Assembly: GCF_000429925.1 (NCBI RefSeq)
Contig: NZ_AUCU01000043.1
Coordinates: forward strand, 1-36,454
DNA: 36,454 nucleotides
Direction of reading: 5' to 3'
Source of the DNA: Desulfatirhabdium butyrativorans DSM 18734
Lineage (GTDB): Bacteria > Desulfobacterota > Desulfobacteria > Desulfobacterales > Desulfatirhabdiaceae
The translations under genes were made by a program, and so were the position numbers. Positions 5,260-34,320 of this stretch are shown here, piece by piece. The notes beneath the pieces were generated by a model, which was not told the origin of the DNA, did no database searches, and saw nothing but the letters and a program-made list of their open reading frames with translations. How positions within the stretch are numbered: position 1 is the stretch's first letter; each line of letters starts with the position of its first letter.

Positions 5260-5485
<226 letters not shown>

Positions 5486-5580: not shown

Positions 5581-6504
5581 TTACTGCGAATGACGCATGC
5601 CGTATTTTTCGGCGTAGCCCCTCGGCGTGATCATGTAGCCTTCATAGCAGAACGTGCGGCTGTTTCCAATAAAGACCGTAGTGAGCATGTCCACCTGCGC
5701 CAGATGCAGATCCTTCAGGCAGGTAATCGTCACGCATTCGTTTTCCCGCATGGCGTTTTGAACGATGCCGACGATGGTCTGCGGGCTTCGGTGCTGCAGG
5801 AGAATTTGCTGGGCGCGGACGAGGTGATCCGCCCGCTTGCGGCTCTTGGGGTTATAGATGACCAGCACGAAATCGGCTTTGGCGGCTGCTTCGATCCGCG
5901 CTTCGATCTGCTGCCAGGGCGTCAACAGATCGCTCAGACTGACGCAGGCAAAATCGTGGGTAAGCGGCGCGCCCAGCAGGGATGCGCCGGATGCAAGCGC
6001 AGGAATACCCGGCACGACTTCGATTTGAAGACACGGTTGTCCCGGGCTTCCTTCGGGCTGAGCCTGGTTGCCGCCTCCCGGCCGCCTCTGGGATGGGGGG
6101 GGCAGCAGGCGGATATTCCGGTTGCGGCAGATTTCAAAGGCCAGCCCGGCCATGGCATAAATACCCGGGTCTCCGCTCGAGACAATCGCGACATCTGCGG
6201 CCTCATGGACAGCCGCATCGATTGCCGCCTCCACCCGATCCACTTCCTGTGTCATGCCGGATTGAATGATGCGCTTTCCTTCCAGCAACGGCCGGATCAG
6301 GTCGATGTAGAGCCGGTATCCGCTGACGATTTGGGCCTCCGCAAGCGCCTGTTCGGCGCGGGCGGACAGATGCGCTACATTTCCCGGTCCGATTCCGATG
6401 ATACACAGCTTGCCCGGGCCACCGCGAGGGTGACGTTTCCCCTGCTCCGTTTCGGAATGATCAGCTCGTTTGTCCGGGCTGCCAACAGCGCGGCTGCTTC
6501 GCAT
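5581..6504 (-). CDS. cobJ: Precorrin-3B / cobalt-precorrin-3B C17-methyltransferase
   Basis: This is the last gene of the cobalamin operon. It methylates C17 with ring contraction, using S-adenosylmethionine in the cytoplasm (CbiH/CobJ family). Visible signatures are CIIGIGPGN near the N-terminus, VSSGDPGIYAMAG, EVVPGIPALASGASLLGAPLTHDFACVSLSD, and YNPKSRKR..L. I choose ATG 6504, about ten bases after AGGAG; homology begins about 30 residues later, so the short Arg/Ser/Gly-rich lead may be non-essential. The start overlaps the end of cbiG by 130 bp, implying coupling. An atypical Pro/Gly/Gln-rich insertion of about 25 residues (PPPSQRRPGGGNQAQPEG...) precedes EVVPG. It contains a G8 run at 6095-6102 (plus strand). 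A longer frame from 6591 is less likely. Confidence 0.9.
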   Translation of the reverse strand: MRSSRAVGSPDKRADHSETEQGKRHPRGGPGKLCIIGIGPGNVAHLSARAEQALAEAQIVSGYRLYIDLIRPLLEGKRIIQSGMTQEVDRVEAAIDAAVHEAADVAIVSSGDPGIYAMAGLAFEICRNRNIRLLPPPSQRRPGGGNQAQPEGSPGQPCLQIEVVPGIPALASGASLLGAPLTHDFACVSLSDLLTPWQQIEARIEAAAKADFVLVIYNPKSRKRADHLVRAQQILLQHRSPQTIVGIVQNAMRENECVTITCLKDLHLAQVDMLTTVFIGNSRTFCYEGYMITPRGYAEKYGMRHSQ

Positions 6505-7622
6505 ACGCTTTTTGCTCCTACATGACGTTGTACGGTCTCGGAAGGATGGAGAATCCCCCGGGCCTGATTCAATTGATCCGCGGAAAACCACCGGCAGGGC
6601 ACCCCGAAATGATCGGCGCTCTGCCGGATGGCTGGCTCGTCCTGCTTCAGATCGATGCTGGCCACACAGCCGATACTGGCCGTAGACAGGTGAGACATGG
6701 CCAGGATCGTTTCAATCCACTCCCGCATTTCGGAAAACGGCGTGTTCCGGTTGCAGCCGATCCCCAGCACAAGGCTCGGTGGTCGAATCACAAGGATGTT
6801 TTCGGCGGGAGAACAATCCGTTCGATCGGTGACCAGAACGCACGCCGAGCCATTGCCCGGGACCACCTGCCCTTCTCGAAAGGGGATTCCCGAGCTTTGC
6901 GGAGAAAGCCGGACCCATCCCATGGGATCCTCGAGTATCACCGGGACATCCGTCAGGAAGGCCTTGTTGACGATTCGGATGGCCTGCGGGTTTTCCACCC
7001 GGAGCCCGAGCGTTGCCGCCAGCACATCGATGGCCGGTTTTTCGTGCACATCGGTTGCCGTGGTGATGACGGGCATCGCGCAGGTCATTTGGGCAATCTG
7101 GCGCGCCAGGTCGTTTGCACCGCCAAGATGGCCGGAAACCAGGCTGATGACGAATTTCGCCCGCTCGTCCATCACGACGACGGCCGGATCCTCGGTTTTG
7201 TGAACCAGAAGTCCGCCAATGAGCCGCACGACGATCCCGCATGCCATGATGAAGACATGGCCACCGTAGTTCTGGAAAGAGCGTTTCACCTCAACCGAGA
7301 GTTTGGCGAACCGGATCGTCTGCTGGAACGAATCGCCCGATCGATCCCCTTCGATATCGAGCTGTTCCGGCAAAAATATATCGCATGAATCCACCATGCA
7401 GCCCGGGCTACGCCCGGCTGAATGGAAGTCACCGGGGCGACTTTCCGCACCAATGGGGCGGCATGAGAGCCGCCCTACGCTATCGCCCACTGCCGACTGC
7501 CGACTGCCGACTGCCCGCTGCCCGTAGAGAAGACCTTCCTGAATCGTCCGGGCAATCGACAAGCCTGCATGGCTCAAAACCCAGATAGCGACCCGGCTCC
7601 GATCTTTCTTCCCGTGTTTCAT
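6375..7622 (-). CDS. cbiG: Cobalt-precorrin-5A hydrolase CbiG with repeat insertion
   Basis: CbiG opens the delta-lactone of cobalt-precorrin-5A and releases acetaldehyde in the anaerobic B12 pathway. The 415-residue product shows the family blocks: IMACGIVVRLIGGLLVHKTEDPAVVVMDE, VISLVSGHLGGANDLARQIA, TATDVHEKPAIDVLA, and the C-terminal domain LVLGIGCNRNTP...TASIGCVASIDLKQDE. ATG 7622 overlaps the cobM stop as ATGA, so I prefer it to the ATG four codons earlier. Between IQEGLL and CDIFLPEQ of the N-terminal domain lie 47 residues (33-79) encoded by repeat DNA (7386-7526); family members normally run straight across. The frame stays open, so the protein may still fold with a surface loop, but activity is not certain. 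Confidence 0.93.
   Translation of the reverse strand: MKHGKKDRSRVAIWVLSHAGLSIARTIQEGLLYGQRAVGSRQSAVGDSVGRLSCRPIGAESRPGDFHSAGRSPGCMVDSCDIFLPEQLDIEGDRSGDSFQQTIRFAKLSVEVKRSFQNYGGHVFIMACGIVVRLIGGLLVHKTEDPAVVVMDERAKFVISLVSGHLGGANDLARQIAQMTCAMPVITTATDVHEKPAIDVLAATLGLRVENPQAIRIVNKAFLTDVPVILEDPMGWVRLSPQSSGIPFREGQVVPGNGSACVLVTDRTDCSPAENILVIRPPSLVLGIGCNRNTPFSEMREWIETILAMSHLSTASIGCVASIDLKQDEPAIRQSADHFGVPCRWFSADQLNQARGILHPSETVQRHVGAKSVCEAAALLAARTNELIIPKRSRGNVTLAVARASCVSSESDREM
7386..7526 (-). repeat. In-frame repeat insertion within cbiG
   Basis: Heptamers of the CGACTGC type fill 7486-7524. They are followed on the minus strand by a 63-bp-family repeat half (7390-7480: gccgccc..., gtcgccccggtgacttccattcagccgggc, ...gggctgcatgg) like those at 12112 and 18637. 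The total of 141 bp is a multiple of three and encodes 47 residues. Confidence 0.85.
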
Positions 7623-8534: not shown

Positions 8535-8610
8535 CGATTGCGATTACGATTACGACAACGACAACGATAGCGACAACGACAACGATAGTGATAACGATAG
8601 TGGCAACGAT
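8535..8610. repeat. Hexamer array between cbiET and cbiF
   Basis: Imperfect units of CGACAA, CGATTA and CGATAG run for about 76 bp. The array starts 98 bp after the cbiF start and ends 8 bp from the cbiET stop. It is the same repeat class as 5316, 14058 and 26317. Confidence 0.8.
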
Positions 8611-12101: not shown

Positions 12102-12111
12102 GGTAATCCCA

Positions 12112-12290
12112 AATGCAACCGGGGTTTCACCCCGACAAATGAAAGCCGCAGGGGCGACTTCCGCAGGAATCGCCCATAGAACAGGAGTTGCATCCCGGTT
12201 GATGAAAGCCGCAGGAGCAAGCTACAAAAAATGGGAACCATCCGCTTTCTTCTGACTCCTGACTTCTGACTCCTGACTCCTGACCTCCGC
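12112..12290. repeat. Composite repeat: 63-bp-family units plus heptamer array
   Basis: 12112-12230 has two imperfect units of the 63-bp family ('ccgg..cccg.caaatgaaagccgcaggggcgacttccgcaggaat'). They are followed by 'aaaaaatgggaaccatccgctttcttc' split across copies, and then by heptamers TGACTCC (12251-12286). It is the same order as 18637-18822. It fills the 214-bp spacer between cbiL and the membrane-protein gene. Confidence 0.8.
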
Positions 12291-14005: not shown

Positions 14006-14182
14006 TATCGCGAAAATACCGCCCCTCGCAATGCTGAGGATAATCGCTGTGGCTATCGCAATCGTTGTCGTTGTCGTAATCTTTTTCGTTGTCGTTGTCG
14101 TTGTCGTTGTCGTTATCGTTGTCGTTATCGTTGTCGTTATCGTTGTCGTTGTCGTTGTCGTTATCGTAATCGTAATCGTAAT
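14006..14182. repeat. Long hexamer array (GTTGTC) with shared flank
   Basis: About 20 units of GTTGTC, GTTATC and GTAATC fill 14058-14182. The flank 14006-14044 is an inverted match to 5363-5404 (gcattgcgaggggcgg core), so array and flank form one dispersed element. Confidence 0.85.
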
Positions 14183-18568: not shown

Positions 18569-18902
18569 TCAGGAGTCAGAAGTCAGAAGTCAGAATAAAA
18601 GCGGATGACTTCTATTTCTACTCAACTCGCCCCGGCGACTTTCGTAGGAATCCCCCATGCAGCCGGGGCCACACCCCGTTGGATGAAAGCCGCCAGCGCG
18701 ACTTTCGTAGGAATCCCCCATGCAGCCGGGGCTGCGCCCCGGTTAATGGAAGTCGCAGGAGCAAGCACCAAAAAATGGGAGCCATCCGCTTTCTTCTGGC
18801 TCCTGACTCCTGACTCCTGATATTCGACTTTCGAAGGAATATGGCGGTATGACAGCAGCCATACTGCCCACTGCCCACTGCCGACTGTCCACTGCCCACT
18901 CC
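18569..18902. repeat. Composite repeat block in the btuC leader
   Basis: In order on the plus strand: inverted heptamers GGAGTCA/GAAGTCA (18569-18593); two 63-bp units starting at 18637 and 18700, both with gactttcgtaggaatccccc; the shared block 'aaaaaatgggagccatccgc'; heptamers TGACTCC (18796-18820); and heptamers ACTGCCC/ACTGCCG (18863-18902). It fills the transcribed spacer between the terminator and btuC. Confidence 0.85.
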
Positions 18903-18956: not shown

Positions 18957-19035
18957 GCACCCGGTTTCTGAGGCCCGTCTCTGTTCAAATTGGATGGATA
19001 GCACCCGTTGCCTGGGGTGCTTCTCCTCGGTTGAG

Positions 19036-19202
19036 ATGTCCGGCAGGTCTTCTGGCTCTCAGATCATTCTACTTTCCGCGTCTTCCCACCACGCTTCGGC
19101 GTGGCAGTGACATGATGCGGATTTCGTCCCTGACGACAGCGGCGGGTCCGCTCCCGATTTCGACGGGATTCCCTGTTTGGCTCTTTTCGAGCACCTGGAC
19201 AT
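19036..19202 (-). promoter_or_regulatory. Cobalamin riboswitch
   Basis: Read on the minus strand, the segment has the aptamer hallmarks. P1 is ATGTCC (19202-19197) pairing with GGACAT (19041-19036). Conserved parts include AGGGAATCCCG, GGACCCGCCGCTGT, and a CACTGCCACGC..GCGTGGTGGGAAG stem region. The B12 box AGCCAGAAGACCTGCC at 19057-19042 matches the AGYCAGGAGACCTGCC consensus except for one base. A further hairpin GCACCC..GGGTGC (19020-19001) may form the kissing-loop partner. With the terminator at 18918-18956 it forms a transcriptional off-switch for the 12-gene operon. Confidence 0.93.
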
Positions 19203-19213
19203 TTACAGATTCA

Positions 19214-21988: not shown

Positions 21989-22167
21989 GGCTATGGGCTA
22001 TAGGCTATGGGCTATAGGCTATGGGTTATAGGCTATGGGTTATGGGTTATGGGTTATAGGTTATGGGTTATGGGTTATGGGTTATAGGTTATGGGTTATG
22101 GGTTATGGGTTATAGGTTATGGGTTATAGGTTATGGGTTATAGGTTATAGGATATGGGCTATGGGTT
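21989..22167. repeat. Large heptamer array (CTATGGG/TTATAGG)
   Basis: About 25 copies of a 7-bp unit with two variable sites (C/TTAT, GGG/AGG) form the upstream region of the SNF2 gene, beginning 26 bp before its ATG. The plus strand is G-rich with regularly spaced GGG/GG tracts. Confidence 0.95.
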
Positions 22168-26316: not shown

Positions 26317-26375
26317 GTCATCGTCATCGTTGTCGTTGTCGTTGTCGTTGTCGTAGTCGTAGTCGTAGTCGTAAC
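26317..26375. repeat. Hexamer/trimer array (GTTGTC, GTAGTC)
   Basis: About ten units of TCGTTG and TCGTAG start seven bases after the regulator stop. It belongs to the same class as 5316, 8535 and 14058. Confidence 0.8.
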
Positions 26376-26528
26376 CGCAAATCCCCTTCTCCCCGCTTGC
26401 GGGGCGAGCGAGAGACTCCCATAGAAATCGCCCATGCGAGGGGACACCCCGTTCAAAGAAAGCCGGTTCTGCCGGCCGGGTATCAAACCCGGCCTTACAT
26501 CAACAGGCTCCATCAATGCAGGAATCCG

Positions 26529-26711
26529 ATGAAAGAAGGCCAGAGCGGGACGCTCTGGTTACCACCGGGTTCATCAATACAGCAACCCTATGAGAGAAGG
26601 CCAGAGCGGGACGCTCTGGTTACCACCGGGTTCATCAATACAGCAACCCTATGAGAGAAGGCCAGAGCGGGACGCTCTGGTTACCACTGGATCCATCAAT
26701 GCAGGGGCCCT
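26529..26711. repeat. 61-bp tandem repeat, three copies, each with a hairpin
   Basis: The exact phrase gaaggccagagcgggacgct recurs at 26535, 26596 and 26657. Each unit contains CCAGAGCG-GGA-CGCTCTGG, a perfect 8-bp stem. The first two copies are nearly identical; the third diverges and enters the 3' end of the MaoC gene. The array lies between convergent genes. The 26376-26528 stretch holds weaker 63-bp-family fragments. Confidence 0.9.
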
Positions 26712-34239: not shown

Positions 34240-34320
34240 AGTGGGCAGTGGGCAGTGGGCAGTGGGCAGTGGGCAGTGGGCAGTGAGCGGTGAGCGGTGG
34301 GCGGTGGGCGGTAGATAGTG
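34240..34320. repeat. Heptamer array (GGGCAGT and variants)
   Basis: About eleven units run from GGGCAGT (six near-exact) through GAGCGGT and GGGCGGT to a degenerate end that meets the inverted-repeat element at 34318. It starts 27 bp after the acyl-CoA synthetase stop. Confidence 0.92.

Follow-up and report, generated by a model that had tools for sequence, protein, structure and literature searches.

A composite hairpin and heptamer repeat lies in frame in the B12-pathway gene cbiG, probably as a tolerated insertion in a surface turn

The cbiG locus and its insert

The stretch of DNA analysed here, referred to as the window, comprises 36,454 nucleotides and contains on its minus strand a run of B12 and transport genes, which lies downstream of a cobalamin riboswitch and includes cbiG (table 1). 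The coding sequence of cbiG (6378–7622, 415 amino acids) is open from ATG 7622 to the stop codon at 6375–6377. Its product carries the domains CbiG_N, CbiG_mid and CbiG_C, all three of which score above the Pfam cut-offs, and is also matched by nine NCBIfam CbiG models, each under its own cut-off. The same-strand neighbours belong to the B12 pathway and comprise CbiD along with three genes of the tetrapyrrole methylase type, one of which also carries a fused methyltransferase domain; the labels cbiF, cbiH, cbiET and RAYT used in this text are names which we presume to fit, put on Pfam-level matches. The start codon of cbiG overlaps the stop codon of the upstream methyltransferase gene (ATGA, 7622–7619). 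A search of the same genome found no other cbiG, and its seven further matches correspond to the insert region described below, with one of them spilling over by a few residues on either side.

Table 1. Coordinates of cbiG, its insert and associated features in the window.
Feature	Position	Strand	Basis
cbiG (cobalt-precorrin-5A hydrolase family)	6375–7622	−	Pfam CbiG_N, CbiG_mid, CbiG_C and sequence
N-terminal part of CbiG that is kept, with strand 1 and helix 1 (MKHGKKDRSRVAIWVLSHAGLSIARTIQEGLL)	7527–7622	−	homologue alignments, AlphaFold model
Insert, 141 bp in frame, 47 residues (net approx. 46 versus close homologues)	7386–7526	−	homologue alignments
Left border TCGCATGAAT, degenerate form of border motif TTCGTAGGAAT	7381–7390		by eye against 20 other copies
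Hairpin A (AGCCCGGGCTACGCCCGGCT)	7400–7419		sequence; common to other copies
Hairpin B (GGAAGTC..GACTTTC)	7424–7445		sequence; repeat comparison
Hairpin C, GTAG-tagged REP form, GTAG-GGCGGC-TCTCAT-GCCGCC (cbiG coding strand)	7457–7478	−	pattern search
Heptamer tail, 5.6 copies of ACTGCC[CG]	7485–7523		tandem-array detection; 221 triple matches genome-wide
Right border CCGTAGAGA, degenerate second copy of border motif	7522–7530		by eye
Cobalamin riboswitch, in front of the minus-strand run of B12/transport genes that includes cbiG	19026–19213	−	98.7 bits versus gathering cut-off of 31.5

Close to its 5' end, cbiG contains a segment whose length is a multiple of three and which keeps the frame open, exactly as a first-pass annotation of this DNA had described it. 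The encoded peptide (YGQRAVGSRQSAVGDSVGRLSCRPIGAESRPGDFHSAGRSPGCMVDS, residues 33–79) lies between ..IQEGLL and CDIFLPEQ, and repeat homology, as judged by eye, extends slightly beyond the insert itself to approximately 7381–7530. The annotation had read the insert as heptamers combined with a 63-bp-family repeat, and both are indeed present as ACTGCCG/ACTGCCC units at 7485–7523 and as a hairpin repeat (family D6) at 7381–7445. It had also placed the same repeat types near 12112 and 18569, which is right in substance: the insert matches 12105–12165, 18642–18706, 18705–18762 and 18825–18900, and additionally 34240–34314 (blastn, E ≤ 0.01). For a further copy proposed at 443, the insert gives no blastn match at this threshold, but 443–499 matches a neighbouring module at 18587–18643 (D20).

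By composition, the insert looks foreign to the gene, since its GC content is 67% versus 59% in the rest of cbiG and its in-frame codon score is below that of every overlapping 47-codon stretch (0 of 5271) from 15 further genic stretches in the window, the majority of which had also served for training. A codon-score-based gene caller—a small one, trained on 16 ORFs of the window—picks ATG 7397 as the start of cbiG, which raises the question of whether translation begins inside the insert (residue 76, MVDSCDIFLPEQ..), with the old N-terminus either disappearing or being produced as a short peptide of its own. The Pfam CbiG_N match, which begins only at residue 116 and thus past the insert, would agree with such an internal start. 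However, the 32 codons upstream of the insert are in frame, match strand 1 and helix 1 of the homologues and have a gene-like codon score (0.09 versus −0.07 for the insert), and they include an A at residue 12 that at least 90% of 56 sequences share. By eye, a strong ribosome site is seen before neither ATG 7622 nor ATG 7397; the latter has no purine-rich site in front of it, whereas the former overlaps the upstream stop codon as in coupled genes. An internal start is therefore unlikely.

A composite repeat found mostly between genes

The insert represents one whole copy of a composite repeat that consists of three hairpins and a heptamer tail, with one of the hairpins being of the GTAG-tagged REP form. 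Read by eye on the plus strand, its elements follow each other as border motif, hairpin A, hairpin B, hairpin C, ACTGCC[CG] tail and second border motif. The border motif is TTCGTAGGAAT in most copies and TCGCATGAAT in the copy in cbiG. In the printed copies, the TTCGTAGGAAT-like end motifs appear by eye as direct and not inverted repeats, i.e. they are not the terminal inverted repeats that define a MITE. Hairpin C, with its GTAG, 6-bp stem and 6-nt loop, lies within the range of GTAG-tagged REPs (5–13-bp stem, 2–20-nt loop; PMC3733652).

With a 171-bp query, 54 matches were obtained in the same genome at E ≤ 1, itself counted, and the heptamer triple occurs 221 times as compared with 0 for a reversed control, so the repeat is clearly more than a chance similarity. 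The best other copies are 79% identical over query positions 12–146 and 87% over 85 bases, and the A–B part alone has 50 matches. The pattern of hairpin C was found just six times in this genome (reversed control, 0; relatives, 0 of 56), which suggests that either the tag or the stem is degenerate in most copies. The composite is absent from the 56 relatives searched, a set that contains no second genome of the host genus; two of the 56 have short heptamer-only matches.

Such a repeat-rich draft genome, with its 73 contigs, could in principle contain repeat DNA that wrongly bridges two parts of cbiG. Yet identity to the best other copy is 87% across 85 bp, and the insert shares at most 32 bp of uninterrupted sequence, all of it heptamers, with any other retrieved copy of the genome, which makes a repeat-driven misassembly unlikely. 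Moreover, both flanks belong to the same gene, in frame and with nothing missing, so we consider an assembly artefact extremely improbable.

The positions of the copies relative to genes were assigned with the gene caller, which took the place of a codon profile in 25-codon windows that was too noisy to separate genes from spacers. The caller is itself imperfect: run on the whole window, it put a plus-strand ORF over cbiG and missed a cbiA-like gene. In the retrieved loci, which for the heptamer triples come from the first 100 of the 221 matches, it yielded 91 distinct repeat places—features no more than 60 bp apart, or present in loci that overlap, were merged, and sites less than 100 bases from a locus end were dropped—of which 81 are intergenic, nine lie at a gene edge and one is in a gene interior. 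Broken down by type, the 24 composite places include 21 intergenic and three edge cases (cbiG among the latter), A–B or partial copies occupy 53 places (48 intergenic, five edge), and heptamers alone 14 (12 intergenic, one edge, one interior). The composite thus behaves as GTAG-tagged REP families do, in being multi-copy and mostly intergenic. Since called genes cover 82% of the window and the repeats are nevertheless mostly intergenic, they are strongly excluded from genes.

That cbiG counts as an edge case here is due to the gene start which the caller sets within the insert, at ATG 7397. Of the two remaining composite places at an edge, one touches an ORF that is short and doubtful (L168), and the other touches a gene end (L215). 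Among the 24 composite places examined, cbiG is the sole copy that has the sequence of one gene on both sides. To this extent, the view of the first-pass annotation that the event is uncommon holds: with one composite place of 24 in a gene, it is rare in its own genome. Several apparent further cases were rejected. The long open frames over L030, L020, L015, L007, L021 and L022 were judged to be read-through or wrong-strand frames, with the caller putting the copies between genes, and the candidate gene-internal copy at L017/L168 overlaps only the short doubtful ORF.

The sole interior place is a 27-bp heptamer array (L213 1501–1527; contig 3, 19679–19705; also L248), which in frame codes for GSGQWAVGSR in a 596-aa membrane-protein-like gene, at a position where three homologues differ from one another. 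Two heptamer arrays overlap the 3' end (L246 1442–1475) and the 5' end (L241 1509–1535) of called genes, which may reflect read-through or wrong starts; another (L024 1424–1546) immediately precedes a secretin (GspD-like) gene, whose start is putative, and shares its frame. The longest of 15 arrays compared, an ACTGCCN array of 118 bp (L235 1438–1555; contig 5, 110437–110554), is intergenic according to the caller. The window also contains a heptamer of a different type, TATGGGT, in approximately 25 head-to-tail copies (21992–22167), as well as hexamer arrays of ACGACA/TCGTTG in both orientations (5316–5369, 8546–8610, 14062–14179 and 26327–26372).

The insertion site in CbiG and the integrity of the enzyme

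Alignment with homologues, which had been proposed as a check in the first-pass annotation, clearly sets the insert apart. In relatives of the same family and order, all 25 CbiG homologues covering the site have no residue opposite the insert (26 were aligned, with L049 lacking the N-terminus; the fragmentary L057, L059 and L060 were left out, and a match in G045 had no locus). In a second set of named genomes, which overlaps with the first as some genomes are evidently common to both, 70 of 80 loci could be aligned and 69 cover the site: in all 69, 0–6 residues lie between the point where helix 1 ends and strand 2, as compared with 47 here, and none has a similar 47-residue segment. By eye, the remaining ten loci and the mis-anchored L126 have no insert either, with L096 being cut by a contig end. 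A tblastn match of L099 across the insert turned out to be a chance alignment, the N-terminus of L099 being of normal length. Three Desulfotignum proteins (L078, L080 and L084) have extra residues slightly further on, after strand 2, which indicates that additions to this part of the domain also occur at other positions. These alignments bear out the earlier suggestion that an intergenic repeat has spread into cbiG.

An AlphaFold model of CbiG based on a 56-sequence alignment (mean pLDDT 85, pTM 0.80) has the insert bordered by a helix (residues 18–33) and a strand (residues 79–85). pLDDT is below 50 for residues 43–73, with ten-residue means of 44, 32 and 34 over residues 41–70. The insert is thus predicted to form a disordered loop in the turn between helix 1 and strand 2 of a confidently modelled core, and model and alignments together support the idea, voiced in the earlier annotation, of a tolerated surface loop. 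The top Foldseek match is the CbiG homologue 3eeq, but with an rmsd of 16 Å over the chain, this superposition is secure for the local site only.

That annotation had alternatively seen in the insert a first step to a broken gene, and it is true that the insertion has hit a single-copy enzyme gene and that the codon usage of the insert is not gene-like. An early pseudogene with a damaged enzyme would, however, fit poorly with the absence of any stop codon or frameshift, with the confident core of the model and with the conservation of the sequence: in the 56-row alignment, i.e. this CbiG and 55 of the 70 aligned homologues, 54 columns show at least 90% conservation among the 55 homologues, of which this CbiG retains 49, while five differ (S17, G136, A155, I279 and A331). 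Four neighbouring pathway genes were compared with homologues, and those labelled cbiF, cbiET and cbiD have no insertions of at least six residues specific to this genome (25 homologues each). An apparent second insert in cbiH (window approx. 6040–6115) proved to be an ordinary variable loop, where homologues differ in length and L086 is about as long; as a repeat copy it was ruled out, as its DNA has only 16–18-bp chance matches in the genome. Decay of cbiG is thus distinctly unlikely.

Could the insert have acquired a function, either as an mRNA hairpin tuning the operon or as a partner-binding protein segment? Its DNA is hairpin-rich within a coding region, and in part of PMC3733652 REPs are proposed to act on mRNA. 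On the other hand, RNA folding of the insert is no better than that of shuffled sequences (z −0.86; 48 of 200 shuffles as good), the protein segment is disordered in the model and a counterpart is absent in homologues, so a functional insert appears very unlikely.

That the frame was kept had been regarded as uncommon in the first-pass annotation, a view that we do not share. The 21 copies that extend from hairpin A into the tail offer 126 reading frames, six per copy, of which 47 (37%) are open. When combined with one third of lengths being divisible by three, this gives approximately 12%, i.e. about one in eight random insertions into a gene would keep it open, and frame retention alone is therefore unremarkable. 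In addition, in-frame REP and RPE cases have been published (in parts of PMC3733652 and PMC10969869).

Route of insertion, related elements and biological meaning

Overall, our data are best explained by a composite-repeat insertion that sits in a surface turn and is probably tolerated there, with the single-copy CbiG presumably still functional. A copy of the intergenic composite, which among the genomes searched was found in this genome only, would have inserted into cbiG with a length and frame that were compatible by chance, and would have landed with little harm in the turn between helix 1 and strand 2. Translation would then add approximately 46 disordered residues to an enzyme that presumably still folds and works, and the copy may survive because it is close to neutral.

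The insertion may have been mediated in trans by a RAYT or have arisen through recombination between the border motifs. We find six Y1_Tnp (RAYT-type) matches in the genome, some being fragmentary, and the cbiG-type element is absent from their retrieved flanks of up to 1.5 kb. By eye, two of these matches (L172 and L174) adjoin other palindromes that carry GTAG; two partial matches (L170 and L173) have 235 identical bases in common. A 61-bp unit present three times at 26511–26704 of the window contains a hairpin (CCAGAGCG..CGCTCTGGTTACC), and by eye a similar hairpin flanks the Y1_Tnp match of contig 22 on both sides (L172 1177–1215 and 1891–1981). This hairpin and the contig 22 Y1_Tnp are likely to be a REP/RAYT pair distinct from the element in cbiG.

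The kind of event is already known; here it concerns another host and another gene, which encodes a B12 enzyme. In the parts of the cited papers that we draw on, the closest parallel is provided by GTAG/CGTC-tagged REPs, which are reported to be intragenic in several species, with REP clusters coding for 43–82 residues in Thauera and R. conorii and with flexible linkers or loops suggested as neutral sites (PMC3733652, BMC Genomics 2013). The copy in cbiG resembles these REPs in having a GTAG-tagged stem-loop, in being located within a gene and in belonging to a mostly intergenic family. In contrast to them, it joins the GTAG hairpin to two further hairpins and a heptamer tail and is found in cbiG of a probable Desulfobacterales host; no word beginning with ‘Desulf’ occurs in the text of that paper.

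Rickettsia palindromic elements are also palindromic repeats of approximately 150 bp inserted in frame in genes, where they are thought to be compatible with fold and function (PMC10969869 and PMC1950309, in part). Yet according to these parts, they are often intragenic and encode a conserved peptide, whereas only one of 24 composite places here is in a gene and none of the frames stays open throughout the 21 copies. Tandem arrays of 7-nt units, mainly intergenic and at many loci per genome as in the present case, have been described in Xanthomonas, Nostoc and Beggiatoaceae (PMC4692102 and PMC4679880, in part); going by these descriptions, the repeat studied here is set apart by its unit, ACTGCC[CG], and by being joined to a hairpin element. 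Finally, repeat DNA is translated into disordered protein regions also in Borgs, but these are archaeal extrachromosomal elements with tandem repeats (PMC9879509, in part). A search of the main texts of open-licence papers yielded neither a repeat insertion in cbiG nor the repeat family described here.

A more far-reaching reading would take the composite as an evolving source from which this lineage draws new protein segments: its frequently open frames, together with its GC-rich hairpins and a heptamer tail that has a 7-residue period when translated, would allow entry into surface turns of enzymes, with the segment in CbiG having acquired a role in the B12 pathway, either in binding or in regulation; we regard this as highly improbable. 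As a probably tolerated insertion, the repeat in cbiG provides a clean natural insertion experiment, in which one copy of a known-family repeat has entered an enzyme whose fold is known, in a turn of just 0–6 residues in 69 aligned homologues. It also provides the estimate that approximately one in eight insertions of such a repeat would keep a gene open, and extends the range of genes bearing REP-type repeats to a probable Desulfobacterales host and to an enzyme of B12 biosynthesis.
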